Positions 5,737 to 64,000 of a stretch of 64,000 nucleotides of DNA are shown here, one piece after another. The position numbers and the translations under genes are program-made. The DNA is taken from contig NC_088921.1 of assembly GCF_038396675.1 (NCBI RefSeq), forward strand, positions 35,716,501 to 35,780,500, given 5' to 3'. Below the pieces are notes generated by a model. It saw only the letters and a program-made list of their open reading frames with translations, was not told the origin of the DNA and made no database searches. Each line of letters opens with the position of its first letter. The stretch's first letter is position 1. This DNA comes from Hydra vulgaris (Eukaryota > Cnidaria > Hydrozoa > Anthoathecata > Hydridae).

Positions 5737-6156
5737 AATATTAACTTACAGTTCAATTTAAGTTTAAATAATGATAAAACTATGTAAACCTTTTAGAATA
5801 AATTAAAAAAATAAATAAAATACAACAAAAAATAGAAATATTTCTATGCTTAGTAAAAACATAGAAAATACAACTTTACAAGTATATCAAAAAGCTGACG
5901 TGATACAAAAAAATGGTTTTCAGATTTGAAATCAGCGCTAAAAACTACATTAGAGTATATAAACCACATATTAGATTTCCACAACTTGTTTATTAGTGTT
6001 ATCAGTTTTAATACTATCTGCAATTAAATAATTTTTAACATTATCTGGTAAACTCTGCTGTAGAAAACCAAAAAATCGTAAACTCCTGCTTAATCTTCAT
6101 GTATTGCCATTTAAACTAACACTTTTGGTGACAAAATAGCATGTTTAACACTATCA
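5737..6156. other. AT-rich spacer
   Basis: No gene or clear repeat is seen. It ends at the 8-bp target sequence of the hAT element. Confidence 0.5.
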
Positions 6157-6454
6157 GTTTCCTCAAGAGGCGGCCTTTGGGGGGGGGGGGCATTCCAGAT
6201 TTTGCCGGGGCCTCAGGATTTTTAGGGCCTCATAATTTTAAAATTTAAATATATATTTTTTAATAAAAAAATTAATATTTTTACAAAAACTCATTAGACA
6301 AACATTTTTATCAAAACTCATCAGACAGACATCTTGAAGATCCACAACCTCAAGATGGTCTTGACAATCTTCCTGCACTTGAAAATGATCCAGATACCCT
6401 ACCTCATAATCATGGAGAAGATTATCTAGGTCCAATACAGCTTGAAGAAGATCC

Positions 6455-6523
6455 AGATACACTACCTCATTATCATAGAGAAGACGATCAAGGTCTTCTC
6501 TATGATAATGAGGTAGTGTATCT
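6455..6523. repeat. Perfect inverted duplication, 31-bp arms
   Basis: Positions 6455-6485 are repeated as an exact reverse complement at 6493-6523 around the 7-base spacer GATCAAG. It lies in the 5' part of the hAT element, in sequence that otherwise reads as acidic coding sequence (repeats of DPDTLPH). Arm identity is 31 of 31, which suggests a recent templated inversion event. Confidence 0.9.
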
Positions 6524-6665
6524 CATTATCATAAGGATTTATGGCCCTCAAACCGAAGATGATCAACAGCCCCTCTATGTTCCAGAAAATAATCTTGTTG
6601 AAGAAAATATTACGTTTCCATCAACATCACAGTAAGTAGGAAATTATTTTTGTATGAAAACAGTA

Positions 6666-6957
6666 CAGTCCCTGTTATCCGTCACACGTTTATCCGAAAA
6701 GAACTTTTTTTCCCATTTTTTTATTTTTTATTTGTTATTTTACCTTTCCTTTTCATAGTTTCTATTGATATTTTGCATATTTTTGCTTTATTTTGCGTTA
6801 TTTAAATAATATAAATACGCAAAATCACATTAAGAACTGTAACCTACTTATGCATATAATTTTTTTTTTCATTCTCCATATCCTTGTTATCCGAAAATTT
6901 TTTCTCTTATCCGACACCTCTTCGTCCCCTATTAGTCGGATAATCAAGACTTTACTG
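6666..6957. mobile_element. pogo/Tigger-type MITE inside the hAT element
   Basis: The left end is TA then CAGTCCCTGTTATCCGTC. The right end, read on the other strand, is CAGTAAAGTCTTGATTATCC, followed by TA. Both ends carry the TTATCCGA repeats typical of pogo/Tigger termini. It is 292 bp long with TA duplications at 6664-6665 and 6958-6959, and has no coding capacity. Confidence 0.8.
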
Positions 6958-7004
6958 TATAAATCTTTATTCTCTTATGAAAGATCCAATTCTAATTTCC
7001 TTAA

Positions 7005-8982
7005 TTGTTGCATTTCAGAATTGAGGATCCTGCTCTTTTGCCCAAAATCTTAATGAATTCATTTAGAGAAATTCTGGTTCAACAAGGTCTTATAAAACTG
7101 AAGGAGGAAGATTTTCCAAAAGATGACCATGGACAAAAATTCTCTGTGATGTATTATAAAGGGCATTTTCCAAATGGGGAAACCTATCAAAGAAAATGGT
7201 TATTTTATTCCAAGCATTCAAACAGCATATTTTGTTTTCCTTGCAAAACATTTTCTATCGGAAAAAAGAGCACAAAATTAACTGAGAATGGATATTCTGA
7301 TTGGAAACATATAACATCAGATCTCAAGGATCATGAGAAGTCCGTAAACCACAAGGAATGCTTTATAAAGTGGATGGATTTGGCTGCAAGAATGAAGAAA
7401 AATGAGACTGTCAATGAATGCAACTTAAAAAAAAAAATCAAATTAGAAGTGGAGTATTGGCAAAACATTTTGAAGAGAATAATTTCAGTTATAAAATTTC
7501 TTGCATCTCACAATTTAGTATTCCAAGGACACACTGATAAATTATTTTCTAAAGGCAATGGAAATTTTTTGGGCTTGATTGAAATGATTTCAGAACTTGA
7601 TCCTATACTTCAAGAGCATCTAAGAAAAATTAAATCACACGAAGTAAGTGATCACTATCTTGGGAAAAACATTCAAAACCAAATTATTTAACTTTTGGGT
7701 TCAGAGATAAAGAAATCTATAATTTTAAATTGTCAAAATATTATTCAATAATTATGGATTGCAATACAGACGTAACTCACCAAGAACAATTAACCCTAGT
7801 TCTTCAATTTTACAACTGCAAGTTATTTCCAGTTGAAGAACATTTTATTGGATTTGTTGATGTAAATAGGACGACCGGTGAAGTTTTAACAAAAACTTTC
7901 CTGAAACATTTCACAGAAGCAGGTCAAGATATAATAGATTGTCAAGGTCAATCATATAATAATAAAGCAAACATGAAAGGGATTCATTCTGGAGTGCAAA
8001 AAAGAATAAGAGACATTAACCCTAGAGCGTTTTTTGTGCCATGTAGTGCCCACAGTTTGAATTTGATGGTATGTGATGCTGCAAAATCTTCTTCAAAAGC
8101 AGTGTCATTTTTTGGTTTGGTACAATAAGTTTCTAACTTTTTCTCAGGTTCTAATATCAGTGGGCCATTTGAATGAAATCAGTGCAAACTTTGACTTTGA
8201 AGCCACTGTCTGATACTCGATGGGAGTATCGAGTGGAAAGCTTAAAGACATTAAAATATGAATATTCCAAAGTTTATGATGCTCTAGTTGAAATTGCTAA
8301 CAGTTCAGAGTATGATACATCTACCAAATATCAGGCAAATAATCTTGCCTGATATTTGGTAAGCTTGAGTGTATGGTATGACATATTATTTCAAGTAAAT
8401 TTGGTCAGCAAAAAAATGCAGTCTCCAGACTATGATCTATCAACGGCACAAAGTGAAATTGACCAACTACTCAAGTATTTTAATGACTTTCGTGATAAAG
8501 GAAATAAGAATGTCAAACTTTTTGCTATGGAAATTGCAGAAAAATTATAAGTAAGTCCTCATTTTGAAGCTGAAAACACAATTCGTCCCCGAAAGAAAAA
8601 AACTCTTTTTTCCTATGAATTTGCAGATGAACCAATTTTAAATCCAGAAACACAGTATGTAGTGGAAGTTTGCAATGTACATTTAGATCAAGTGCTATCA
8701 TCTTTAACAAGTCGATTTAATCAACTGAAAGAACTTTCTGAGCTTTTTGGATTCTTATATAAAATTCCAGAAGTCACCCAAAATACTGAAGCACTTAAGA
8801 AACATAGCAAGGATTTAGAGGTTGCCTTAACTGAAGATGGACATTCAGATGTGATATCAAATCAATTATTTGATAAAATCAAAGCAATATCCAGTATGGT
8901 TCCTGGAAAATTCCTCCCTTAGGCACTGATTAAGTTTATTTTAGAAAATCACTACGAACAATATTTTCCAAATTTAGTTATA
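7005..8982 (+). pseudogene. hAT transposase with TTF-type zinc finger, N-terminal and central parts
   Basis: This is the transposase of the outer hAT element, resembling the ZMYM1-like/DUF4371 group. An intron-like TTTCAG precedes the open stretch. A TTF-type zinc finger is visible: KRWLFYSK-like, then IFCFPCKTFSIG, then SDWKHITSDLKDHEKSVNHKECF (7190-7370). The catalytic domain follows (YYSIIMDCNTDVTHQEQLTL, 7735-7795; NPRAFFVPCSAHSLNLMVCDAA, 8017-8090) and then LVSLSVWYDILFQVNL (8358-8408). Frame breaks occur near 7690, 8130-8345, 8550 and 8920. The coding sequence stops at NLV-I (8979-8982), where the Sola-like element entered. It continues at 18229 with no codon lost if one TATA copy is ignored. 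The gene is dead. Confidence 0.85.
8322..8361. repeat. Inverted duplication in the hAT coding region, 17-bp arms
   Basis: TACCAAATATCAGGCAA (8322-8338) is copied in reverse complement at 8345-8361 around ATAATC. The second copy puts a stop and a frame change into the transposase just before the LVSLSVWYDILF segment, so the inverted copy appears to be an inactivating mutation. Confidence 0.85.
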
Positions 8983-9497
8983 GGGTCATTCCACGCCAGG
9001 TGGTCCAGAGGTCCCCGCACTACCATCTCCGATTTTAATAAAATTTTGACAGTATGTTGTTAAAAATGTTTTATAAACATTGCCAAAATTTCAGATCAAA
9101 ATAATTATTATTTTGGATTTTGTGGTACTTTTTGTAAAGCTTACCCAAACATCAATATATGTCAGTAGCTAAAAATTGAATTTTTGGGGTCCTATATTTT
9201 TGCAATGAAAGGATAATATATCTTAAAAACGTGGTTTCTTAGTAAACCGAAGGTGCAGATCACAAATAATTTATTACAAGTTTCATATTATGCCTACAAT
9301 TGAGTCTATGGTTCGCCAAATATCGTCACAAACCCAACACTATAAATATTTTTTATTTATTTGTAGGATCATATCTCTAAAACTAAAGGTTTTTGAATAT
9401 TGCTATTTTTTCTAAAGGTTCTACATACTATCATAATGATATGGATTAAAAATTTGCTATTTTGAAAATTTTTCTGCTGAGTTATTCTGGAAGCTGA
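8983..9497 (+). repeat. Left inverted repeat of the Sola-like element, outer part
   Basis: It matches the reverse complement of ~17710-18228, with small differences such as GGTGGTCCAGAGGTC against a diverged segment at the right end. The match stops where the LINE begins and resumes at 13312 (GCAATATGGCG), which runs on to ~13490. Confidence 0.85.
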
Positions 9498-9518
9498 GTT
9501 ATTCTGGAAGTTATTCTG
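9477..9518 (+). repeat. 17-bp tandem repeat at the LINE 5' junction
   Basis: CTGAGTTATTCTGGAAG occurs at 9477-9493 and 9494-9510, followed by a partial third copy (TTATTCTG). The intact right repeat has only one copy, so the extra copies were made at the junction during LINE insertion. Confidence 0.8.
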
Positions 9519-9682
9519 TAAAGTATCTTAAAGGAACTGGCCTATACATAAATGAAGACTTCGCTCAAGAAACAATATATCATCGAAGAAAGCTCTGGGA
9601 AGAAGTTAAAAAACTAAGAAGCGAAGGTAAATACGCCATTTTAAAATACGATAAAATATTTACACGAGATTTTAAAAAATAG
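9519..9682 (+). pseudogene. C-terminal remnant of LINE ORF1
   Basis: The open frame ends with LKGTGLYINEDFAQE, HRRKLWEEVKKLRSEGK and YAILKYDKIFTRDFKK, then TAG. The charged pattern ending in an ILKYDKI-like motif is typical of ORF1 proteins of this type of LINE, which are RNA-binding chaperones. The start is missing because the element is 5' truncated. Confidence 0.65.
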
Positions 9683-9740
9683 CGCAACACACTTTTGTTT
9701 TACTGAGTTAAACGCGTTCTAAATTTTACATTCTAAAATA

Positions 9741-12700
9741 ATGGCAATAAAAAATAAAACAATAGATTTTGAAACGATGCGCTTTAATGTCTTTGAAACC
9801 GCGAATAATATTCTCAATGACGCTGATACGCAAATTTTTCAAACGTATAATTTTAACTCTCGATATTTTGAAACAGAAACTTTCAAAACTGAACTTGAAG
9901 CTTATAAAAATAATTTTACGATAATTCACATAAATATAAGAAGCATAAATAAAAATTTTGACAAACTTAAACATTTCCTAATTGATTGCAATTATTCATT
10001 CAGTATGATTTGCCTAACAGAAACTTGGTGTTCTGATGAATCAATCCAAAATAACTCTAACTTTCAAATTCCAAATTATAAATTATTATCTTCTGAAAGG
10101 AAAGCATACAAAAAAGGAGGAGGGATTGCAACTTATGTTCGGAATGATCAAGTGATAAAAGTGAGAAAAGATCACTCCATTTCTAACCCCGATAGTGAGG
10201 TCTTTACAATAGAGATCATCAACTCCAAATTTAAAAATATTATAGTCTCTACCTGTTATAGGCCACCTGAAGGTAATATTAAAAAATGTTCTAATTATCT
10301 AGAAGAAATTTTTCTTAAAATCAATAAAGAGCAAAAAAAGTTGTTCTGTATCGGGGACTTAAACATAGATTGTTTAAAATACAAAGAGTGTCCGATCACT
10401 AAATTATTTTTTGATAACATGTTTCAACATTGTATTTTACCAATTATTAATAAACCCACACGGGTAACCTCGAATACTATTTCTGCTATAGATAACATAC
10501 TAACAAACTCATTTCTAGATACCTCCTTAAAAGCAGGAATAATAAAAATTGATATAACAGATCATTTTCCAGTTTACTTTACAATAAAACATGATACAAA
10601 AATAAATAATAACTCGAAAAAAAAAATTTATAAAAGAAAAATAAATAAAAATTCTATTAAATGTTTTAAAGACGCACTATCGGCAGTAGATTGGGTTAAA
10701 GTGTATCAAGAATGTAACCTTGGGAACACAAACTCTGCATATAATACTTTCACAGATATTTTTCTAAAACACTATTATAATCATTTTCCAATCAAAGAAA
10801 AAGAAATAAAAGTAAAACATTTGAGCTGTCCATGGATCACCCGCGGAATCAAAAAATCTTCAAAAACTAAACAAAGACTATATGTTAAATATTTGAAAAA
10901 CAGAAATGAAGAAAACCTATCTACTTATAAACAATATAAAAATCTTTTCGAAAAAATCAGAAAACATTCTAAAAAAGTTTATTATTCTAAATTACTTCAA
11001 AAAACTAATGGAGATACCAAAAAAACATGGAACATCATGAAAGAAATAATCGGAAAAAAGTATATAAAAACAAACAGCTTACCAGATAGAATTATTATAA
11101 ATGAAATAGAACACAACGATCAGAACTCTATTGCCGAACAATTCAACAATTTCTTTGCAAATATTGGCCCTAACATGGCGTCTAAAATTCAAACCGCAAA
11201 TAACTCCTTTGAAAATTATTTTACTGATCTAAATAGCGAACTAACTTTCAACGGATTAAGCTATGAAGAACTCGAAAATGCAAAAAACTCTTTAAAAATC
11301 AACAAAGCACCAGGAATTGATGAAATTTGTAGCAATATTGTAATGAGTATCTTTCCGATAATAAAGAAACCCCTCTTCGAAATATTTAAATCTTCAATTA
11401 CAACAGGAACCGTTCCAGAGAAATTGAAAATTGCTAAAATTGTACCAATATATAAAACTGGAGAACCATACTTACTAAACAATTATAGACCAATCTCAAT
11501 TCTTCCTGTATTCTCAAAACTCCTCGAACGAATAATTTATAATAAATTATACCAATATATAACAAACAACAATATCTTAAATACAAAACAATTCGGCTTT
11601 CAAAAGCAACATGCAACCGAACATGCAATCGTAGATCTTGTAAATAGCATCAACTACTCATTTGTTAATAAAGAATTTGTTTAAGGAATCTTTATAGATT
11701 TATCGAAAGCATTCGATACTGTTGATCATGCTATCCTGCTAAAAAAATTGGAAAAATATGGCGTAAAAAATGTTGCATTACTCTGGTTTAAAAATTTTTT
11801 GCTAAACAGGCAGCAATGTGTTAATACTGATGAAAATATCTGTTCAAAATTGCTTAAGATTAAATGTGGCGTTCCCCAAGGTTCCATTCTAGCTCCCTTA
11901 TTGTTCTTAATATACATTAACGATCTTCCAAAAGTCTTAAACAAACTTGATGTAATAATGTTTGCAGATGATACTAATTTATTTTATTCATCTCAGTCTA
12001 TTGAAGAACTCTTTGAAACAACGAATATCGAACTTGAAAAACTTAATATCTGGCTAAAATCTAATAAATTATCTTTAAACACAGAAAAAACCAATTACAT
12101 TTTATTCCATCCCAACCAAAAAAGAAAAAAAATACCTAATATATTACCATTGCTAAAAATAGAAAACAAAAATATTGAAAGAGCCTCAATAACAAAATTT
12201 CTAGGTTTACTAATTGACGAAAATATTTCATGGAAAGCACACATTGACTATTTAAATACAAAAATAACCAAAAACATTGGCGTGCTATACAAAGCTAGAC
12301 CAATGTTATTCCAAGAAAATCTAAAACATCTTTATTTCTCATTTATACAGACCTATTATACATATGGTAATATAGCATGGGCAAGTACCAATAAATCCAA
12401 TTTGAAATCACTTTATCGACGTCAAAAACATGCCTTTAGAATTGTCTATAAAAAAAGACAAATTCACTCATGCTGAACCTTTGTTTAAACTCCTTAATGC
12501 ACTAAACGTCTATAGAATTAACATTTATCAAAACTTATTGTTTATGCTGAAATATAAACTCGGGCTTGTCCCATCACATTTCTCAAATGATTTCTTTAAA
12601 AGCAATAGAAATAGATATGACACTCGAGAAGTAGGAAACTTTAATATACCGTTTAGAAAAACAAAACTATCGCGTTTCACAATTTCATATCGCGGTCCCT

Positions 12701-12822
12701 ATCTCTATAATAAACTGATATCCAGAAATACCATAATTACAAAATTAGATAACCAAAATTGTTTGAAAATCTTACTAAAAAAATTCGTTTTAAATATAAA
12801 CAATTATATGAACTTACACTAA
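9741..12822 (+). pseudogene. LINE ORF2: endonuclease-reverse transcriptase, one stop and one frameshift
   Basis: The N-terminal APE-type endonuclease is clear: FTIIHINIRSINKNFDKL (~9915), ICLTETWC (~10007), GGGIATYVRN (~10120), STCYRPPEGN (~10250), FCIGDLNIDCL (~10345) and a C-terminal ITDHFPV (~10555). The reverse transcriptase follows: NKAPGIDEICSNI, NNYRPISILPVFSKLLERII (~11480-11540), FIDLSKAFDTVDHAIL (~11690), CGVPQGSILAPLLFLIYIND (~11870) and the catalytic MFADDTNLF (~11960). A TAA at 11682-11684 interrupts the frame just before the RT A motif. A one-base shift near 12440-12460 moves the last ~125 codons to another frame. It is otherwise intact, so this is a young insertion compared with its hosts. 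Confidence 0.9.
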
Positions 12823-13293
12823 ACTAATACTGAAACTAGAGCCAAAATTAACGTTGAAGCGAAAATCCCAAAAAACTTCAATAACAAATATTAATGTAAA
12901 AAATATATAAATCAAAAATAATTTTATTTATGCCTAATCATATATTTATGTGTGCAAAATCTAGCATTTATCAATTATTTTTTATCTTACATTTTATTAT
13001 ATGTGAATCCAATATAAAATGAACTACCATTATATTTTGTGAAACTAGAAACATGTAAAAACAAAAATACAAAAAATATTACTAGTACAAGCGGTTTCTT
13101 GATGACAAGACCATCTGGTCTTCTGCAAGTTTCCCGCGTTCTTTTAATAATAATGATACCCTGCAGTTATATTCTTTGTATTCTATAAAGTTGTGAGATT
13201 TTATTTTTTCTCCTACCATCATATATTTTATAAAAATTGTAAATTTGTATCAGTTATATAGATAGAATCACAATATTGTAAAGATAAAAGAAC

Positions 13294-13311
<18 letters not shown>

Positions 13312-13324
<13 letters not shown>

Positions 13325-13490
13325 CGAAAAAAGTGAAAAACCCTAAAATAACGTGTGTTTGAACCCCTAAAACTTGATGTGGGCAAATTTTGTTTGTTTT
13401 TTCAATTGCATTATTGGAAAGACCTTATTTCAAAATTTTAGAAACAGTAAAAACTGTCTTGGAGAGATCTTTCTTATGAACGAAAAAAAC
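13312..13490 (+). repeat. Left inverted repeat of the Sola-like element, inner part
   Basis: It continues the left repeat after the LINE. The stretch from GCAATATGG to TTTCTTATGAACGAAAAAAA matches the reverse complement of ~17533-17708. Homology to the right end fades after ~13490. Confidence 0.85.
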
Positions 13491-13629
13491 TTGGTCAATA
13501 TATAAATTTTTTGAGTTTTACAATTTCGTCCTAAACATAAAGATTTATCATACTGCATCAAAATCAAAGCTTACTGTGCCAAAAATCAAAATGTTTTAAT
13601 GTTCAAAAAATATTATTTAACATTTGCTT

Positions 13630-13860
13630 GAGTTATTTCTAGGGATTTTCGGGTCTGGGTACCCGGACACGGCGAGTCTGTGGCTGAATACCCGGTCTAA
13701 GACTCGGGGAGTCTCGTGATTTGAATGCCTGGACTTGTTTCGGACGCATCAGGGTGTTTTTTGAATCCCTGACCTCTCTAGTCATCTGTATGTGATGCAT
13801 AATAGCATGCTTAGATAATGCTGTAGTTATATTATTGCTAGGGCAACCCACGGTAAAAAA
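13630..13860. other. Locally GC-rich stretch inside the Sola-like element
   Basis: About 200 bases (GGGTCTGGGTACCCGGACA and neighbours) are much more GC-rich than the surroundings. The minus strand is open for 70 codons, but the protein is low-complexity (repeated Arg/Pro/Ser) and unrecognised. It may be a separate small insertion. No termini are seen. Confidence 0.35.
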
Positions 13861-14049
13861 AGTTCATAAAATTAACGGTTGGATCAAAACTGTCAATTAC
13901 AAAATAGTTGAGTAAATCTAATCCAGAAAGAGGCAAAATATAAATTATAATATTTTCTAATGTATTTTAAAACAATTTTGTATCATTTAAGAAACTCTTC
14001 AAGGTATTGGAAGTGTGCACTTTAAGAAAATATTATTATGGAACATGAG

Positions 14050-14395
14050 TTGACAATACGCTAAAGCCTATTAAATTAAATGTTGAAGCTTTTAGTTGAA
14101 ACGCTGCTGATCTTGCAACAGCCCGATTAGTAATTGATTTTATGTTAAGAAAATTAAAAGAATCTAATGGTACTTTAAGTAGAGAGCTATTAATGACAAT
14201 AAAAACTAGAATATATAGCCATTAAATTCAAGATTTAGACGAGCTATTTTAATCTCTTGAAAATGGTACTACGCCAAGGAAAAGAAAAAAACTTACAACA
14301 GATTTATTGAAGAGATTATAAAATACTGCGAATAAATGCATGTTATTGGCAACTTAAAATACTAGAGAAGTTGAACCAAAAAGGGGCGCTTGTTT
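14050..14395 (+). pseudogene. Fragment resembling a hAT transposase
   Basis: One frame reads LATARLVIDFMLRKLKESNG, then LSRELLMTIKTRIYSH and IQDLDELF, then TPRKRKKLTTDLLKRL, with stops in between. The pattern recalls the helical region before the catalytic part of some hAT transposases. It is short, broken and without visible ends. The call is tentative. Confidence 0.35.
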
Positions 14396-14682
14396 TTTTT
14401 GTTATATATGTATTTTTTTAAATTTTATTACGAAATTTTAGGCGACGATTATTCATATGCCTAAGAGCACCGTCAATTCAACACGTCACAAATGCGGTCC
14501 TGGTTATAGATGCAAAATCTAGTTAAAAAATACAGCTTTTACAACACATTTTCTGCAACAAAAAACTAAAAACAAATATTTTTATGTTAATATATTGTTT
14601 CTTATCTACAAAAAAAAAAAATTTGTGATAGAAAAAATTCAGTTGTACGAAACTATAATCAACTTGATTCCAAATTACATAT

Positions 14683-17237
14683 TTAAAATAGCTTCAAATT
14701 TGGAATTAATGTCTAAAACAACAATTGAAGGTAAATTGTAATATCGACCTGTTGCAGAACTGATTGGATTTGGAATGACTGCAATAACATGCTGCTCAGG
14801 AACCCAACAATTGTCCTTGGTGCTAGGTGCCAGTAAAATGACTGAGCCATACCATGTGGATGCATAAAATCAATGAAAACATCTTCCTGTTCTTCTGAAA
14901 TTTCACAAACATGTCCAACCCATTAATGTGCATCGTAAATACATGCAACAAAATTTCCAGGACTAAGATCAGACAGTGAAACTAATTTGGTTGAGTTGTT
15001 GTTGTAACTCTCATTAACGTTTGCAATAAAAGATGTATTGTCATTTGAAATACAACTGACACAAACCTGATATTTATTTACAGGTACAAATTTGTGATTA
15101 TCGCGAGTACCTGCAACTGTGTTTCCAGTGCTAAATCGTTTCTCTTGATTGTCTTTAATATTGTCTACTTCATCACTATCAACATAAATAAATGAAATAT
15201 CTGTGATACTTTCCTTGCAAAAATCATATAAATTTAAGGGCGTTAAAATTTGATTATCAATTGGCTGTTGAAGACTGGCACGTGTTGCTAAACGCTTTAC
15301 AGTTCCTCCAATTCCATCACAGGGAGATTTTCCATGACTAGTTGCAAAGAAATTCCATTCTGCTCTAATACCATAGTCAGTATAATGGTGACATAAATTC
15401 ATAAAATTTTTGAAATTTTTGTACTGTGCAGCTGAACCGTCACTGAAATAATGAATAAGTTCAAAAGATAAAAAGTTTTAAGTTCAGTTAATAATTTACT
15501 AAGAAATACATGAACAGAAATAGTATCGTGATGCATGCAATTAAGGATAACACAATAACATTTATTTTTAAGTATGTCATTAAGTTTGTAGTAAACAACA
15601 AAAGGATGCATAGTTGTTTGGCTGTTTTCCCAGTAAAACCCTTGAACAGCATCTTGCACAACAAATGAATAGTTTTCAGAAAAATCCATCAAAATGATCA
15701 ACTCATTTGATTTCAGTTCATTTTTCAATAATGGCAAATATTTGTTTTGGTTTTTGGCAATAAAATGATGCTTAGATAAAATAAATACTTTTGAAATTAA
15801 ATCATCTATGAAGTCGTCTACTGGTAATTGCAAACATTCTAAAGTTTCACGATCTACTTTTATCCATTGCTTGAATGTTATAGTTTCATCACATTTAAAG
15901 TCTTTAAATTGCTCTTCAAGATAAGTCTTTAACATTTCATTCCCTGGACATTTATCGCAACGATGAAGCATACATTCTTTAGATTCAATATCACAAACTA
16001 TTTTTTCAGTTAGACATTTATAGTCTACCGTAACTGGGCTACTTGCAAGCATTAATTTTATATTCTGGTGAATCGTACATACACAAAAAGGATGGGTACA
16101 TGAAGATCAAACAGTTATACACCATTTTGGACGTAACTCGTAGAATTTAGAAAATCCGACTTCAGCTCCATTTTCTTTTTTATGCTCCAAAAAAAGTTCC
16201 TTTAAATTAACTAACAGTAATTTTTTTTGCATATGCACTTTTTTTGCACCAATGCGTACAGATACAAAATCCTTTTTACCTGGACATATTCTGCTAAAAG
16301 CTTCGTGTTCATAAAATTTCAAAATTTTTTCTTTAACATGTTCTGGCAATTTCTTTGCTGCATTTCTTTCTGGAAGTGCTAAAATTCCACTTTTTGCTTT
16401 TAACTTTTTTGCTGCTTTAGCCATTCTGTCTGATACTTTAAACTCACTACATATTTTTATTCTTGACCAACTGTTTGGTATAAGAGTTAAAACTTGAACT
16501 TTTTCACGTGGATTACTGATTGTAGATATTTTATCTTTCAATTCTAATATCAAATCTGACCAGTCAATGCAATTCTCACACTCTACACTTGCATTGCTTA
16601 ATAGTAGGACACTATTATCTGGTGATAAACCATTAACAACAGCTATTTTTTCTGCAACTGTTATTTGCACTTGCGAAATTTTGCTTTTTACATAACTAGC
16701 ATGATCTCTCTTACTAACACGTTTTCTTAAAGGTGAAATTCCAAGCTCAGAAAGGCAAGTATTAATAGTGTCAGTTGAACAAAATATATCATCTATGTCA
16801 TCAATATCGTCAATTTTTTCACTTGAAGAGCTTGTGGTTGAATAAGCTTTGCGGCAATTTGGACACAATTTTTGACCTGGACAAATAACTTTATTTGTTA
16901 AATTCGAAAGACAGTCTGGCAGACTATTAATACTGCAGACTGTCTGCAGTCTCTTGGTCAATACATCTCAAGCCTTTAACTGAGCAACGATTGGCGATAC
17001 CAAAAGGGTTTAAACAATGACGCTGTAAATGCGTGTATTTAACCAACAGCAGTGATTTGTGGTGGAAACAAATTAGAGTAATATTTTAAAGTTCGCCTCA
17101 CAATCAAACTCTGTTCCTCGTTCGAAAGTTCTGAGCAAGTCAATAAAACCCTTTTTTCGAGAATAAGTACTTAAATGACATAAACTTCCACCAAATTTTC
17201 TAATAAAACAAGTAGTTAAGTTTTGTTCAACAGACAT
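14683..17237 (-). pseudogene. Sola-like transposase, frameshifted
   Basis: This is the transposase of the middle-layer element, about 850 codons on the minus strand from a plausible start MSVEQNLTTC (17237). Landmarks in order: RCLNPFG-like and a CPGQKLCPNC zinc knuckle (~16870), helix-turn-helix-like WSRIKICSEFKVSDRMAKAA (~16440), RICPGKKDFVSVRIGAKK (~16260), FSKFYELRPKWC (~16130), CTIHQNIKLM (~16060), then the catalytic-type segments ELIILMDFSENYSF (~15690), HYFSDGSAAQYKNFKNF (~15420) and FFATSHGKSPCDGIGG (~15350). The C-terminus has VGHVCEISEEQEDVFIDFMH (~14900). Frame breaks lie near 16960-17090, 16100, 15450-15480, 14920 and 14820. The Asp residues of the three segments are probably the acidic catalytic residues. 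That assignment follows the family pattern and was not tested. Confidence 0.75.
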
Positions 17238-17532
17238 GTCAGGATAAATTTAAAATAACTCTTATTATAACATCTATTCTAATTTTCGTTTTCGAATATT
17301 AGATGTTTGTGATGAACTTAAATATTTGAAATTAATTTAGAGAGATTTGTCCGTAGAATAAAAATATATTTACTTACTAAAATTACCTCTACATGGCAAT
17401 AGTTAATATACGGATCTACGTTAATATACGGACCATGGCAATAGTTAATATACGGACCTACCATCTTAATATACATCGTTTTTAAAATATCAAAGGCTTT
17501 GCAGACTTAACTTAGCTTATAAAAACTAGATT

Positions 17533-18228
17533 TTTTTCGTTGATAAGAAAGATCTCTCCAAGACAGTTTTTACTGTTTCTAAAATTTTGAAATAAGGTCT
17601 TTCCAATAATGCAATTGAAAAAACAAACAAAATTTGCCCACATCAAGTTTTAGGGGTTCAAACACATGTTATTTTAGGGTTTTTCACTTTTTTCATCATA
17701 TTGCTTTCAGAATAACTCAGCAGAGAAATTTTTAAAAAAGCAAATTTTTAATCCATATCATTATGATAGTATGTAGAACCTTTAGAAAAAATAGCAATAT
17801 TCAAAAACCTTTAGTTTTAGAGATATGACCCTACAAATAAATAAAAAATATTAATAGTGTTGGGTTTGTAACGATATTTGGCGAACCATAGACTCAATTG
17901 TAGGCATAATATGAAACTTGTAATAAATTATTTGTGATCTGCACCTTCGGTTTACTAAGAAACCACGTTTTTAAGATATATTATTCTTTCATTGCAAAAA
18001 TATAGGACCCCAATACGAATATACGAATTTTAGCTACTGACTGAAGTTGAAGTTTGGGTAAACCTTACAAAAAGTACCACAAAGTCCAAAATAATAAACA
18101 TTTTGATTTGAAATTTTGGTAATCTTCATGAAACATGTTTAACAACATACTGACAAAATTTTATCAAAATCTGAGACGGTAGTGCGGGGATTATATCGGA
18201 AATTGAACCGTTTGGCGTGGAATGACCC
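17533..18228 (-). repeat. Right inverted repeat of the Sola-like element
   Basis: It is the reverse complement of 8983-9497 plus 13312-13490, undisturbed by the LINE. It therefore shows what the left repeat looked like before the LINE entered. Confidence 0.85.
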
Positions 18229-18423
18229 TATAGCATTGCGAATTTTATTGACATTATTACTCACTGTTGCTTCCGCAGAAAGAAGTTTCTCAAAACTTAA
18301 ATTAATTAAAACCTACTTAAGGTCAAATATGTCTCAGTGCAGACTTACAGGCTTAGCAGAGATATCAATTGAAATTGACGAGTTAAAGAACATAGATATT
18401 AGTACATTAGTTATTTGCTAATA
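18229..18423 (+). pseudogene. hAT transposase, C-terminal dimerisation part
   Basis: After the TATA duplication the hAT reading frame resumes as IALRILLTLLLTVASAERSF, then SKLKLIKTYLRSNMSQ. This is the hAT C-terminal dimerisation domain with its signature ASAERSFSKLK. It ends with a stop at ~18420. It joins directly to NLV at 8979, so the insertion removed no bases beyond the duplicated TATA. Confidence 0.85.
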
Positions 18424-18575
18424 TTATAGCTCGTTAAGTCAAGTTTCAATGAAGTCATGACTTTAATAATAATTTAATAAATATACTTAAAAAAAAAAAT
18501 TTTTCATTTCAGGGGGCCTCACATTTTGATCTTGCCCAGGGCCTCCAAAGTTCAAAGGCAGCCTCTGGTTTCCTC

Positions 18576-19550
18576 CGCACTATCAAAAATCTTTTCCACA
18601 AGAGATACATTTTACTTGGAAAAGCGCTTTCTAATAAATAAAATAAAGCAAAAAAAAAATAAAATAAAATAAAATTGTCAAATTTGATCAGTGATAACCA
18701 AAAGGTGTAATATAGCTAGACTATTGTACCTCTGGTAATGTTTTTTAACTCTTACAATGTTTATTACCTCTTTGGTAAAGTTTATTACAAATTTCAGATA
18801 ATGTGCCACTTGGATTTGCAGTTAAAAATACAATTTTTTCAGCAAATACTCTTATAATTCAAGACATGTATGTCTTGGGTTATCATTATTGAATATTAAA
18901 TATTGAAAATTGATCATGGTCAATATTCAGCTTAATACTAGCCTTTCTAACACCCAAATATAGAAATTAGGATCTATTTTGAACAAGTCAACAGGGTTCA
19001 GACTTGTTGAGCCGTATTTTGTACAAAAACTAGTAGCGAAAAGAAAAACTACTAGAACTTGAAACAGTAGCCAAAAAAACAGATATTGTCAATTGCATGA
19101 ACTTGACAGAGCTAAGCAATCATGTTGAAAGAATTCTACAAATATTAAGGCGTTACTAGATTTAATTAATAAAACAATCTTAGGTTCATAAATGCATGCA
19201 AACATAAAATTGCTAATCCTTTGTGTGGGTTTCTTAACCACATTTTGTGTGGGTTTCAATCACATTTAAACAAACATATTTGTTGTTGGTCTGACATTTG
19301 ATCAGAAAATCTTTCCAAAGGAGCATTTTAAAGTCTAACGTCAAATTACAATAAGTTTGTAGCCTGGATCAAATAAAAGCAAATCCAAGCAATTCAACAA
19401 CGTGATTGAACCTTTTTTAATTAAAACTGAAGACTCTGAGATTGTTCTTTTTTTTTGATTTGACCTTTCTAGTGGAGCTTCATTTTTATTTTGGGTGTTA
19501 ACCATTTTATTTTTTTAAAAGCTTCTATGGTGTTAGCCAGGAGCAAGAAA
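18576..19550. other. AT-rich spacer
   Basis: No gene is recognised. A small imperfect inverted stretch around ACATGTATGTC lies near 18880, and TTTGTGTGGGTTTC is repeated at ~19218 and ~19243. Confidence 0.4.
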
Positions 19551-39364: not shown

Positions 39365-40928
<1,564 letters not shown>

Positions 40929-48692: not shown

Positions 48693-50277
48693 ATGAATTT
48701 TATAACTTTTAATAACAACTTTAACTTTTTGAGTGATGCAAAAAAAAACGAGCTCCTAAATGACAATTTATACTACGAGTTTATTAGTTCTAACATAACG
48801 TCTGATCAGAGAATAGAAGTAAATAATGGTAAAATACTTTTAGCTTCATTTTTGTTTTGTAATACTAATGGAAACTATATGTGTTTTTTTAATTTAAGAA
48901 CCAGGTATTGATTTTGTTTTTAATCATTCAATAACCGATGAACTATGTGTAAATCAGAATGTGCATCAAAATATCAACGCTGTATTAAAAAATTCTCGCA
49001 TCTTTGAGCAGTTCCATAGAAACACAACGGAGATGGTTGTGACAAAACAAGGAAGGTTTTTGTATTTTGAGTTTAATTTCTTTAAATGTGAATGAGTTTG
49101 TATTAGCGAAACGGTTTCTCTAGCTTAACTCTTAATTTATAATTTTTTTAGACGAATGTTTCCAGCACCTGAGATTATTTTATCGGGACTAGATCCAAAT
49201 AAGTCATATATTATTTTTATGGATATTGTTCCAGTTGACAATGCAAAGTACAAATGGACAAAAAAAAGTTGGATAATGCATGATAAAAACGACAGTTGTT
49301 GGTCTTCAGAAATATTTGTTCACCCAGACAGTCCTCTTTTAGGTTTGCAATGGATTAAAAAATCAATAAGTTTCAAGACTCTGAAGCTCACCAACAACTC
49401 ATCTAACTCAAAAGGAAATGTAATATTTTTTAAAATTATACATTTAAACTTATTTTATCAAGTTAAAGTTTAAAAGAAAAATAAACGGTATCGATAAGTA
49501 TACTTTATTTGCTTAAACGTTTCAGATTCATTTGAGCTCGATGCACAAGTATCAACCTCGTATTCATGTTACACAAACTTGCGATATGCATTTAATCAAT
49601 GTTCAGCCTTTTTGTACTTTTGTTTTTAAAGAATGCCAGTTCATAGCAGTTACAGCATATCAAAACCCTAAGGTGGATTAGTCATCGTATTAAGATTATT
49701 TGAAAATCATCTAAAAAACTTTATTTTTCGATCATTAAAAAATCATATATAATATAAGTTAAAAATTTATAATAAATAAAAATATGCTTAACTTTACTAT
49801 CTTTGTTTTTTTTAAACTTAGATTACAGATTTAAAAATTAAATACAACCCGTTTGCAAAAGGATTTCGAGATGAGTTCAATAAAAAGGTTCCTTTCAAAC
49901 TAGTGCGTTCCAAAAAGCCGTCTACGAAAAAACGAAAAATCGATGGTAAATATTTTCTATTTGTATTCAAATAACTTAAAACTATTATTACTATATTTCT
50001 TTTTTTTTAGAAAACTTCATTCTTAATTTTAAATATTTTTTTTTCTACAGACAAGTTGAACATAAAACAAACCTTAGTAAAAAGAGAACTGGTACCAAAT
50101 ATTGAACAATTAACAACTTTGTCGTCATCAGAAGGGATTGAACTGTCAGCTGAAAAGTTAATCGATGAACTTACCCTTCCTGGATCAACTTCAAGAAAAA
50201 ACTTGGAGCTTCTTTGCCAGCCTTATTCTAACTCCAGCCCTTTCAATCTCACAATTGCAAAATCAAGTTTCACATAA
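48693..50277 (+). CDS. Divergent T-box transcription factor, paralogue 1 (six exons)
   Basis: Exons by GT-AG and phase: 48693-48828, 48899-49055, 49152-49419, 49526-49672, 49822-49945, 50051-50277, giving 352 aa. The T-box DNA-binding domain spans about residues 70-255: [20 protein letters not shown] (80-99) then [71 protein letters not shown] and [11 protein letters not shown] basic segment ([11 protein letters not shown]) after it may be a nuclear localisation signal. The canonical Leu-Trp of the T-box start is replaced by Ile-Phe, a sign of rapid divergence. An in-frame ATG upstream (48654) is not matched in the paralogue, so I start at 48693. The exon 2 donor (GTTTTT) is weak. The subfamily is undecided between Tbx1/20-like and Tbx2-5-like. 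Confidence 0.9.
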
Positions 50278-51127
50278 GAATCAATTTATAATAACAGTTT
50301 CATGTAAAATTTTATTTGAATATTTTTATGAAAAGTGATAAACGATAACAGTTTTAAATAATAGTTTAACAGTTAATAGTTATGTAAATAATGTGAATAT
50401 AAAAAAGTATTTAAAAAAAATTTAGATATTGTTCACCCGTTGTTCATACAACTTCATAGTTATTTTCTTGAGGTCTAATTTTAAACAAAAAACCAACCGA
50501 AGCTTTTGGAGTTGGTGCAAAGCTTCACAATCGACATCGAATTCATTTTTATTTTATCAAGTATTAATTTGCAAAAGAACATTATTATTTGATAAAATAT
50601 TTATAAGATAACTATCTGAAATATATTTTTTAAGCTACAGGAATAAAGTTGATTTAAGTTTTACCTTTTTTACAACAACAATAATAAAAAACCATTAAAA
50701 TTCTCTTTATCAAATATGTTTTATTGCTGAATCGCAGTTTTGCAATTCTTGTATAACATCATAACATCATTTTGGATTCTTGCAAAACAACATCCATGAA
50801 TATTATTATTCGCTGATAATGTTATGCATTTCATATAAATATTTACTTCTTTTTTGGCTACAGTTTTTTGTTTCTTTAAGATATTTTTTGCTGTTCATAC
50901 AATTAATAAAATGAAATACAAAAAAACGTCTTCAAATACAAATAAACATAATCATAAAATAAAATAAAAGTTTATATAAATAGATAGGGGTTCAAAGAAG
51001 ATACGGATGACCGGAGTCACCACAATCTTTTCATAGAACTTTTATTTGGGCTTTTAACATGTGTAAAGTAAAATAAAGTTGTTATAAAAAATTATAAAAC
51101 TCCATTAAAATATGAAATAACCATCTC

Positions 51128-54415: not shown

Positions 54416-56526
54416 ATGTGCAATGCAAAACAAAGCGAACTTCAAAACGAAAATCTATGTTATGAGTTTATTAAATCTAATATTATGTCTTATAACTTGA
54501 CAGACACTATATATGGTAAGACTTAGAAACTTTTTCTCTATTATACTACATTTGCAAAGTTTGTTTTACAAAAAAGTAAATGGGTTGGCTTATTAGTTTC
54601 TTTATATTTATTAGAGCCTGAAGCTGAATTTGTATTTAATCAACCAATAAATAATGAAGTATGTGTAAATAAGAATGCAAGTCATTTAAAAGTAAGAGCT
54701 GTGCTTGAAAATCGTTGCATTTTTGAGCAGTTTGAAAAAAACACAACAGAAATGGTGGTGACTAAACAAGGAAGGTAAACTTAATCCAAGCAAGTGTTAT
54801 TGATGTTGTTTAAATATTGTGTTTTCTTACTTGCTTGATTATTTTTTTTTTCCTTTCTTATTCTCAAACTTAAAAACTAGTTAAAAAAACATTGATAGAA
54901 AACATAATTAATAAATACTTTATTTATTTAGACGTATGTTTCCATCACCTGAGATTACTCTGTCAGGACTAGATCCAAATATATTATATTATGTGGCTAT
55001 AGATTTTACTGCAGCTGACAATGCAAAATATAAATGGTCTAAAGAAAATTGGGTTTCGCTCGGTGAAAGGGATAATGATTGGTCTTCAAATACTTTCGTT
55101 CACCCAGAAAGTCCTCTTTTTGGTGCGCAATGGATGAAAAAAATAGTTAACTTTAAGACAATGAAGCTCACAAATAGTACATCAAATTCATTTGGAAATG
55201 TAATATTTTTGTTAATAAGGTTTTGCATGTGGAATATTTTAAATTTAAATCAATTAGATCCTAGCAAGCACACAACGTTGAAACAACGTTGAAATAACGT
55301 TGATCAACGTCGATCAACGTTATTTCAACGTTGTTTCAACGTTGTGTGCTTGCTGGGATGTATTATAAAATGTTTTGAAAAGTAGTTTTTCTAATTGTTT
55401 TAGATTGTTTTGAGCTCAATGCACAAATATCAGCCTCGTGTTCACGTTATACCAGATTGCGATGTGTATTTGAATAATTCTCATCCCATCAGCACTTTTG
55501 TTTTTACAGAATGTCAATTTATCGCTGTTACAGCATATCAAAATCCGAAGGTAGATATTTTGTTTTAATTATGAAAATAGAAGCTATTTATATACAAGTA
55601 CAAAATAATTGATTTTTTGATAACTAAATAATAAATGAAAGTATAAAACTATAATTTTTTGATAAACCAATGAGCTTATAATGAATAAAAATATTTTTTG
55701 TCTCGAAATTCAGATTACAAACTTAAAAATTAAATACAACCCTTTTGCAAAAGGATTTCGCGATCAAAGAAAACGAAAGTTCCCAATACAACAAGTGTCT
55801 TCCTTTGAACAGTCAATTATAAAAAAAAGAAAAAAAGAAGGTTAAAAAGTCTTTTATTTGTTTATTTCATATTCGAGAGCTTATTTATATGTCTGTGTGC
55901 ATTTGTGTATATTTATATTATTAACCAAATTTATACTTCAGTTAATAAAATGAAACCTCTTTAATTAACTTAATACCTTCATAGAAATAGATAGATCAAA
56001 TTTAAAAAAATCTTAATTTTAATCTTTGATTAAAATTAATTTAGATTAAGTTAGGAATTAACCGACATTAGAGAATTAAAAATTATCATTATGGCATAAA
56101 AACGTTTAACCATTTTTTATCATAATGTCATAGTTATTAGTTAGCTTTCATTTCGTGGAACCATTTTTTAATTTTTTATTTTTTTTTGTAATTTTGTAAA
56201 ATATTTTCGTTAACTTACTTTCAACAAATTCACAAAAATTCAATAATTTTAAAATATTCAAAATAAATATTTTTAAACAATTTGCTATTGCAGACGAATT
56301 TGCTATTGCAGAAGAGGGATCTATTTTTACACGTTTAATCTTACCCTCATCGGAAACGTTTGAATTATCTGCTGAAAAGTTAATTGAGGAACTCACCATT
56401 CCAGGATCAACTGCAAGAAAAAATCTGGAAATTCTTTGCCAGCCTAACTCAAATTACTGTGGTTTCAATCAAACAGTTGCAAGACCAGATTTCACATGCG
56501 ATTACATTTATAATAATTTTATGTAA
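54416..56526 (+). CDS. Divergent T-box transcription factor, paralogue 2 (six exons)
   Basis: Exons by GT-AG and phase: 54416-54515, 54615-54774, 54932-55199, 55404-55550, 55714-55840, 56294-56526, giving 344 aa. Exon phases match T-box gene 1 throughout, and exons 3 and 4 are identical in length (268 and 147 bases). The T-box shows [20 protein letters not shown] then [76 protein letters not shown] and [10 protein letters not shown]. It is followed by basic runs (KKRKKEG) likely to act in nuclear import. The C-terminus shares a 28-residue motif with gene 1. The last exon can begin at either of two duplicated acceptors (56294 or 56312), both in frame. The intron 3 extension carries a foldback repeat. 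Target genes are unknown. Confidence 0.9.
55259..55358. mobile_element. 100-bp foldback MITE in intron 3 of T-box gene 2
   Basis: The element is almost wholly palindromic: TCCTAGCAAGCACACAACGT at the left is mirrored by the right end, and AACGTTGA-type units repeat along both arms to the centre (~55308). CAACGTTG-rich foldback repeats of this kind occur in several invertebrate genomes. No clear target duplication is seen. T-box gene 1 lacks it, so it arrived after the gene duplication. Confidence 0.8.
56276..56311 (+). repeat. 18-bp duplication covering the exon 6 splice acceptor
   Basis: TTTGCTATTGCAG followed by ACGAA and then again TTTGCTATTGCAG gives two AG acceptors exactly 18 bases apart (exon from 56294 or 56312). 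Both keep the frame, and the upstream choice adds six residues (DEFAIA). Confidence 0.85.
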
Positions 56527-57267
56527 ATATGTATAAAATTTTATTTAAAGCTTTAAATAATAGTTTATTTTGTAAATAAAAAATAGAAATTATTTATATA
56601 AAAAAAAGAAATGATAAAAATAATATTCAACTATAAATAATCGTTTTTTTGTAGAATGTTTTTAGATAAAAAAAAAAAAGATAAAAATTAGAAAAAAATG
56701 CACTATTTTTTTTTTTTGAACTTAAATAGCAACTAAGTTCAATAGAATTGAAAGTTTTTTTTTAAGTAGACTTAGAATTTAGACTGGCCCTTTTTTTCTT
56801 TAAATACAATTCTATTGCGGGTTAGCGCAATGCCTAAAAACTGACGTAGTGTGCTAAATATTTATTATAATTTTAGCTAATTATAATAAGCTAAAAAGTA
56901 TAATGAGTAGAAAGCACTCTATGCCAAATTTTAAGGCTTTGATACACCAATCATATTTATTTTTAGGCTTGGATACTCTAACCATAAATATTTAAAATAA
57001 TAGAATCCATTTAGTCATTATTAATCAGAGATGTTAACCACGTTATAAAAATTCAAAGCAATATGTAAAAAACTGCAGAAAACTATAAATCTTGTTTTGG
57101 TATCAAATAGAAATTAGTTATGAATATATAAGATGACCAAAATTTTTTTTTGTTAATTTATATATTTAACTTAGGAATTGTTTGAAAACAAAAAGTAAAT
57201 TAGGCAGGCTGTTTACATGTTATAAAATGTTTTAATAAGTTTGTTTCGCGCAAAAAAGCCGGACTAA
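56527..57267. other. AT-rich spacer
   Basis: Includes the 3' untranslated region of T-box gene 2. No other gene or clear repeat. Confidence 0.5.
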
Positions 57268-62709: not shown

Positions 62710-64000
62710 AACATTGCTATGAGAGAAACATAGTTTTTTTAGATGCACACCTACACTATTAAAAGTTTGACTTTGACTTTTATTAACTGTCATTGAATAA
62801 GCCAATCTGAAAGGAAATGACTTTTCAGAACAAAAAGTAATTTAGAACCTGATTGAGCCAACTGAATTCGAGGAACAAAGACCCGTGCACCACCAGAAAC
62901 AGGTATCAAAACCTCTGCATCAACACAATTATTTTAAAGAGAATAAACTTTCATTCGAGCGCCATTGCATAACCCAGCCTATGATCATTTGTAAAATGAA
63001 GTAAAACAGGAACATGTGACCACACTTTTGAAATTCAATAACCTGAACCTGAGTTACAACTTTTCCTAATACACCATGCTTGAAAATATCATTTAGGAGA
63101 TTATTTAACTTGAGTTTAAATACTCTAGTAACTAAGTCAGGTCTATCATTTGTAGTCTGTCCTGGATATAAATTTTCAGTAACCTCGCGCTATTTGGGGT
63201 TGCAGATAAAGGTAATAAAAAGATCTGGTTTACCATACTTTTTAAGTATAGCCATAGCATCTTGAAGGTTTTCTTTTAAAGTTCTAGAGCTTTCTACATA
63301 AGTTGACGGCAAAACTACAACACACCCTGGGTCAAACATTAGGATCACTTCCTAGATTGTTTACATGTTCATGTAAGGCATTATACTGCTTGCTTCTAAA
63401 TATGTTTTGGTATTTCTGATGAAAGCAAGACGTTGCCCTTCAATTGTGACACATGCATCAACAGCATATTGCTGAAATGATTTGATTTTACAAACCACCA
63501 TCACCTTTTGGAAAAAAAGAGGGTAAACCATAGAATATAAGTTGGCTGACATACTTGATATAATTTTTAGAGGATGACCTTTTATTGCCACATTGTTGCA
63601 TTATAAAATTTACTGCTGCAAGTGGGTCATATATATATACAGTTGACAATAATATCTTGATCTGGCCTAAGATTATCTACATAATGAAAAACTTGACCAC
63701 ATGTTCTAAATAAACAAAGTTTATTTAGAACATGTGGTCAAGTTTTAGCTGTAAGTTGTTTAGCTGTAAATAAACAAAAGAAAGACACACACGCTTTATA
63801 ATTTCAAATATTTTTAAAAATTCATATTAGAACTATAATCTACATAACTCCCTGTATAAAAACTTATTTTGCTTACGGAAGTGATGAAAGTGGAGGCAAA
63901 ACTATATTTCCATTATAGCAACATAGAGAATGTGTTTTATCAGGAATTTTTTTTGCATCAAAACGCTGACAGATCTGGTTCAGTTCTCGATAAAAATTAT
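62710..64000 (-). pseudogene. Helitron Rep/helicase, internally deleted and broken, continues beyond the window
   Basis: On the minus strand, in order: a Helitron-like N-terminal zinc motif region with HSLCCYNGNIVLPPL (~63900), FRTCGQVFHYVDNLRPDQD (~63690-63650), QQYAVDACVTIEGQRLAFIR (~63470-63410), LQDAMAILKKYGKPDLFITF then ICNPK (~63270-63190), RPDLVTRVFKLKLNNLLNDI (~63140-63090) and VIEFQKCGH (~63030). It then jumps to PVSGGARVFVPRIQLAQSGS (~62910-62860) and FPFRLAYSMTVNKSQSQTFN (~62820-62770), the C-terminus of a PIF1-type helicase. The replicase HxH motif, Tyr motif and helicase motifs I-IV are absent, so a large internal deletion fused the two ends. Several stops are present, and the 5' part lies off the right edge. 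Confidence 0.75.
63688..63746. repeat. Perfect inverted duplication, 28-bp arms, 3-base spacer
   Basis: 63688-63715 and 63719-63746 are exact reverse complements around AAA, inside the Helitron coding remnant. One arm encodes part of FRTCGQVFHY; the mirror copy upstream is extra relative to the family. Confidence 0.9.

Follow-up and report, generated by a model that had tools for sequence, protein, structure and literature searches.

Nested transposon insertions have been used as a relative clock in the transposition-in-transposition (TinT) method (PMC3014933), and a TinT analysis of nested insertions in Hydra names as putatively active several hAT families as well as Sola-2, CR1 and L2 (PMC12220107). 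At the 5′ junctions of retrotransposons, Drosophila R1 shows 16–27-nt duplications of upstream target, accompanied by microhomology or extra bases (PMC2718515). At those of ZfL2-2 in zebrafish, about 40% carry extra nucleotides and about 50% microhomology, with blunt joining also described, and the authors ascribe the extra nucleotides largely to template jumps (PMC2666801). This report concerns a stretch of 64,000 nucleotides of Hydra vulgaris (assembly GCF_038396675.1, contig NC_088921.1, positions 35,716,501 to 35,780,500; hereafter the window), in which a hAT element is interrupted by a DNA transposon with long terminal inverted repeats (TIRs), the left TIR of which is interrupted by a long interspersed nuclear element (LINE) (Table 1). 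As in the TinT work on Hydra, nested order is used as a relative clock; whereas that work is a genome-wide tally (PMC12220107), one locus is resolved here to the base with uninterrupted relatives. Stacks of this kind are ordinary in transposon-rich genomes, and the present one is routine for such a genome; it is useful as a calibrated example. Since each layer has an uninterrupted counterpart, the ancestral sequence need not be guessed, and both the structure of the junctions and the relative ages can be read.

The hAT element came first, the inner transposon second and the LINE third, an order that is fixed because every layer has uninterrupted relatives in the same genome (searches for relatives covered the whole Hydra vulgaris genome, 911.5 Mb in 15 contigs). 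This nesting and order had been proposed in a sequence-only reading of the window; the nesting is confirmed, with coordinates that prove almost exact. The hAT element spans 6165–18567, and the octamer GTTTCCTC stands directly beside both ends, at 6157 and 18568, which are its only occurrences on either strand of the window. Five of the seven fetched hAT paralogues have perfect 8-bp duplications of their own, L007 being without its left end and L006 without its right. The left end reads AAGAGGC here, and the right end and the paralogues read CAGAGGC, a type of short TIR that we take to be the hAT superfamily motif. The left part scores 30.6 bits against Pfam DUF4371, just under the cut-off of 32.1. 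Once the inner element is removed, the C-terminal hAT frame rejoins across 8982/18233, as had been proposed: the joined peptide scores 41.3 bits against Dimer_Tnp_hAT (PF05699; profile 27–81, cut-off 21.4), compared with 30.3 bits when the right piece is taken by itself (profile 37–81). A single TATA had been predicted for the empty site, and all seven fetched paralogues read TTTAGT-TATA-GCATTG with one TATA, that is, they are without the inner transposon there. Six of the seven extend from this site as far as the end of hAT; in L006 the match breaks off about 10 bases past the site.

The inner transposon, GGGTC...GACCC, spans 8983–18228 between its two copies of TATA. With the LINE and its adjoining filler excluded, its two TIRs align with 646 matches and 41 mismatches, and the alignment has 18 gap columns, three of which are query overhang. 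The two pieces of the left TIR align with the right TIR through the LINE junction. A 2-bp duplication flanked by a longer TIR is ruled out, as the paralogues retain one full TATA; so is a further nested insert at 13493–17530, of which seven family copies cover 94–97%. Perfect 4-bp duplications of varied sequence were found in all nine copies with both ends recovered (TGAT twice, CTTA, AAGA, ATAA, AACA, AGTT, AATT and ATTT, besides TATA in the window); in the other 11 of the 20 copies, the search pattern missed one or both ends. A 4-bp target-site duplication, present here, is a feature of the Sola superfamily, the proteins of which have a DDD transposase. Matches of the transposase-like protein in Pfam and NCBIfam all fall under curated cut-offs, and one open reading frame (ORF) of this transposon compared with PDB gave no match. 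The target described for Sola2 is AWWT (PMC3627910), which two of the ten duplications fit (AATT and ATTT). "Sola-like" is thus a label only, and the Sola name is not established.

The LINE has an A-run that ends at 13315, at the junction with the remainder of the left TIR. Most family matches of the left TIR stop at or near 9494, and 34 of the 35 TIR matches in the 20 copies of the inner transposon cross the site without the LINE. Endonuclease (PF03372) and reverse transcriptase (PF00078) lie in one ORF, ORF2, both above cut-offs, as in a LINE of apurinic/apyrimidinic endonuclease (APE) type. Over the full length of the query, at least 14 other copies are 99–100% identical to it (40 scored of 6647 candidates), near-identity that marks the family as young. 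The window copy is 5′-truncated, as family copies reach about 640 bases beyond it on the upstream side. Compared with nine family copies, it has a private substitution that creates a stop at 11683 and private 1-bp insertions at 12450, within ORF2, and at 9708, between the two forward ORFs; the single stop and single ORF2 frameshift noticed earlier are thus both borne out. Its target-site duplication is at most a possible single G on the 3′ side, and short target-site duplications are seen by eye in family copies L041 and L048. As a separate observation by eye, the LINE 3′ end directly adjoins (TA)n in 6 of 29 copies (L040, L043, L045, L046, L060 and L095), which may reflect a target preference or repeats seeded by the tail.

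Divergence from the family consensus falls from the outermost of the three layers inward: the Kimura two-parameter (K2P) distances of hAT, the inner transposon and the LINE are 0.037, 0.022 and 0.0029, estimated with 7, 20 and 9 copies, respectively. Private substitutions number 82 in 2874 sites of hAT (2.85%; 6280–6350, where a filler is misaligned, was left out), 86 in 5308 of the inner transposon (1.62%) and 11 in 3762 of the LINE (0.29%). Fisher tests between neighbouring layers give p = 3e-4 and 1e-10, and for the two outer layers these tests are weak evidence. Private indels number 11 in 3153 bases of hAT against six copies (one at the first base, a possible edge effect; the 5′ deletion described below was left out), 3 in 2401 bases of the inner transposon (within 14600–17000) against eight copies, and 2 in the LINE against nine. 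The order of divergence agrees with the nesting, and only the youth of the LINE is a strong statement. The proposal that relative ages could be read from decay therefore holds well for the LINE, and the two outer layers are weakly separated. Divergence between the TIRs was ruled out as a clock, as much of the mismatch in their outer part is common to the family: left and right TIRs of the family consensus differ at 19 of 229 outer and 1 of 455 inner sites, and those of the window copy at 30 of 230 and 12 of 455. Because the consensus already shows 19, the 30 outer differences do not date the window copy. The outer difference in 11 other copies ranges from 0/201 to 29/230, and some copies look homogenised between their TIRs.

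Separate successive insertions into one site are almost certainly what produced the stack. Composite elements exist in general, and a single mobile unit in which the inner elements are a natural part of the outer ones might be imagined, but no composite was seen here, the inner transposon is missing at this site from every fetched hAT copy, and the LINE is missing from nearly all TIR matches and occurs at many other places; we regard such a unit as having practically no likelihood. Chimeric assembly is very improbable as well: all layers are repetitive and able to mislead an assembler, but each of the two DNA elements lies between exact duplications of the length characteristic of its family, and across the breaks the sequence continues, base for base, as in other copies. 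Successive insertion nevertheless has points against it, chiefly as regards age. One of the 35 TIR matches, a partial one that lies in L022, fails to cross the LINE site; the uninterrupted sites are paralogues within one genome, from one strain or haplotype; private substitutions include changes that preceded insertion and give an upper bound on age; the hAT estimate rests on 7 copies and that of the inner transposon on 20; and the 2.85% of the window hAT falls within the range of its own family, 1.97–2.96%. This last point, that the window hAT is no outlier, favours the possibility that hAT and the inner transposon were inserted at about the same time and that the gap in divergence reflects family history; nesting by itself demands only that hAT came first. 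We consider this a real but lesser possibility, as the gap remains when the inner transposon is compared with seven random copies (1.69–1.96% private in 40 draws) and the two elements differ in private indels.

For the joining of the LINE at its 5′ end, slippage is the rival to be weighed. All junctions had been read as exact to the base; this stands for both DNA elements, but at the LINE 5′ junction a templated filler intervenes, so that excision of 9519–13315, as had been proposed, leaves 9494–9518 behind. The filler became visible because uninterrupted counterparts give the ancestral sequence, and the window is a clean example because the target before insertion is known from the 34 uninterrupted TIR matches. 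Its last three bases, CTG, are common to the LINE, and the 17-bp doubling (9477–9510) was found, among 48 loci, only in three that contain the window itself. In a survey of 21 junctions (20 listed LINE copies that start inside the query, plus the window), direct repeats of at least 12 bp are present at 7 of 21 5′ junctions (L053, L059, L063, L071, L086, L088 and 9477–9518 of the window), compared with 79 among 2000 120-mers drawn at random from the window and a single one of the 21 3′ flanks (four of these flanks are shorter than 90 bases). With 10 bp as the threshold the counts are 8 of 21, 120 of 2000 and 3 of 21; the 5′ flanks then differ weakly from the 3′ flanks (one-sided Fisher p = 0.08). 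This weak difference suits a 25-bp duplication formed by later slippage, a process that can generate tandem duplications at any time; against it are the second, partial copy that ends in the shared CTG, the excess of repeats of at least 12 bp at 5′ junctions, and the LINE letters inside the repeated words of L059 and L086. Slippage is therefore judged unlikely. A pre-existing tandem target may lie behind other repeat junctions, the window apart, but it cannot explain those of L059 and L086 because their repeated words include LINE letters; repeated template jumping would be expected to leave repeats of this kind. We tentatively suggest, with confidence approaching but not reaching an even balance, that this young LINE family, as it inserts, often builds short 5′ tandem arrays by jumping repeatedly between the target and its own cDNA end, which would seed minisatellites.

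Upstream-target duplications at the 5′ junction are a likeness to R1 of Drosophila; R1 lies mainly in 28S genes, whereas a dispersed LINE with an A tail is concerned here, and, unlike the R1 junctions as described, two junctions in the present set hold repeats that include LINE sequence (PMC2718515). Extra nucleotides or microhomology at the 5′ junction, with a template jump proposed as their origin, are shared with ZfL2-2; tandem arrays such as those here do not figure in what the ZfL2-2 account gives for its junctions (PMC2666801). The junction pattern merits a survey, and LINEs inserted in TIRs or other multi-copy elements offer a design that allows LINE 5′ joining to be surveyed genome-wide.

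Table 1. Positions of the nested elements and associated features in the window.
Feature	Position	Strand	Basis or remark
Probable outer layer, decayed PIF1-like helicase fragment, left of hAT	6094..6156	-	Relatives, PIF1 domain, peptide
hAT target-site duplication, left copy GTTTCCTC	6157..6164	+	8-bp duplications also beside five hAT paralogues
hAT element, left part	6165..8982	+	Pfam DUF4371 below cut-off
Perfect hairpin, 31-nt arms	6455..6523		Absent from six compared hAT paralogues, which have other sequence
Apparent GT-AG intron of hAT gene	6632..7018	+	Sequence reading alone
Inverted-repeat piece inside hAT intron, carried by hAT family	about 6664-6959		Genome matches
Perfect hairpin, 17-nt arms	8322..8361		Absent from six compared hAT paralogues, which have other sequence
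TATA, left copy of 4-bp duplication	8979..8982	+	hAT paralogues keep one TATA
Inner transposon, left TIR up to LINE site	8983..9493	+	TIR alignment
25-bp templated filler at LINE 5′ junction	9494..9518	+	17-bp copy of 9477-9493, then 8-bp TTATTCTG
5′-truncated LINE: forward ORF, then ORF2, A tail	about 9519..13315	+	ORFs, Pfam, family copies
Inner transposon, remainder of left TIR	13316..13492	+	TIR alignment
Transposase-like reading frames	14923..16967	-	One stop, private 1-bp deletion, private 28-bp insertion
Inner transposon, right TIR, uninterrupted	17531..18228	+	TIR alignment
TATA, right copy of 4-bp duplication	18229..18232	+	hAT paralogues keep one TATA
hAT element, right part (includes right TIR and dimerisation domain)	18233..18567	+	Pfam, paralogues
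hAT target-site duplication, right copy GTTTCCTC	18568..18575	+	Exact match to left copy
Probable outer layer, same PIF1-like fragment, right of hAT	18576..18628	-	Relatives, PIF1 domain, peptide

The history of the locus almost certainly ran as follows. The hAT element entered older sequence, probably a PIF1-like helicase fragment, duplicating 8 bp, and the long-TIR transposon then entered the C-terminal coding part of the hAT gene at TATA, duplicating 4 bp. Much later, the LINE entered the left TIR of that transposon, presumably by target-primed reverse transcription. Before the end of the 5′-truncated copy was joined to the upstream side, two short stretches of the target, of 17 bp and 8 bp, would have been copied again, with template jumping as the presumed source of the filler. 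At each step the enzymes concerned would have been active.

The sequence-only reading counted three insertions; all three are real, and around hAT there is probably a fourth, older layer. A search with the joined flanks found two relatives, about 80% identical, that cross the hAT site with one diverged octamer, in agreement with the single copy expected of an empty site. A PIF1-like helicase domain (E 4.4e-15) lies beside relative L100, the one of the two covered by the domain search, in the next reading frame upstream, and the window flanks of hAT form a short continuous minus-strand peptide. Because relatives cross the site, a PIF1 domain adjoins one of them and the flanks read as peptide, the sequence that hAT entered is probably a decayed PIF1-like helicase fragment, as judged by sequence comparison. 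The fragment may come from a Helitron, the protein of which combines Rep with a PIF1 helicase, or from a PIF1 pseudogene of the host. Pfam gave no match for the matching piece itself or for five minus-strand ORFs left of hAT. As a separate matter, the left flank of hAT at 5757–6002 (1–246 of the joined query) belongs to a many-copy repeat of about 78–94% identity.

Within hAT, the 5′ region is shorter than in six paralogues by roughly 320–380 bp net. The deletion is sealed by a filler at 6286–6332 that looks like two imperfect copies of a segment from within hAT, as might be seen after interrupted gap repair. The inverted-repeat piece in the apparent intron is presumably pogo/Tigger-like; with 6636–6975 as the query, all 40 scored genome matches (of 60 candidates) continue past either end of the piece into hAT intron sequence, so that the piece is probably an insertion older than the spread of the hAT family.

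The two perfect hairpins of the hAT copy appear like known template-switch mutations. Short-range template switching has been described for great apes (PMC7954356), and a template-switch origin has been reported for hairpins (PMC8794818); local switching that produces perfect hairpins would be common to those cases and to this one, but the hairpins here sit in a hAT copy of another animal. By our own filter for long perfect hairpins with short loops, there are eight in the window, compared with none in each of four Markov controls, and 13 in other, partly overlapping loci that total 260 kb. The others in the window include 40165–40244, 55263–55354 and 63688–63746, plus three more. Rfam gave no matches, and neither did a tRNA scan with the bacterial code. 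Elsewhere in the window, 48883–50308 and 54596–56527 are diverged direct copies of one sequence, with four pieces that are 71–77% identical.

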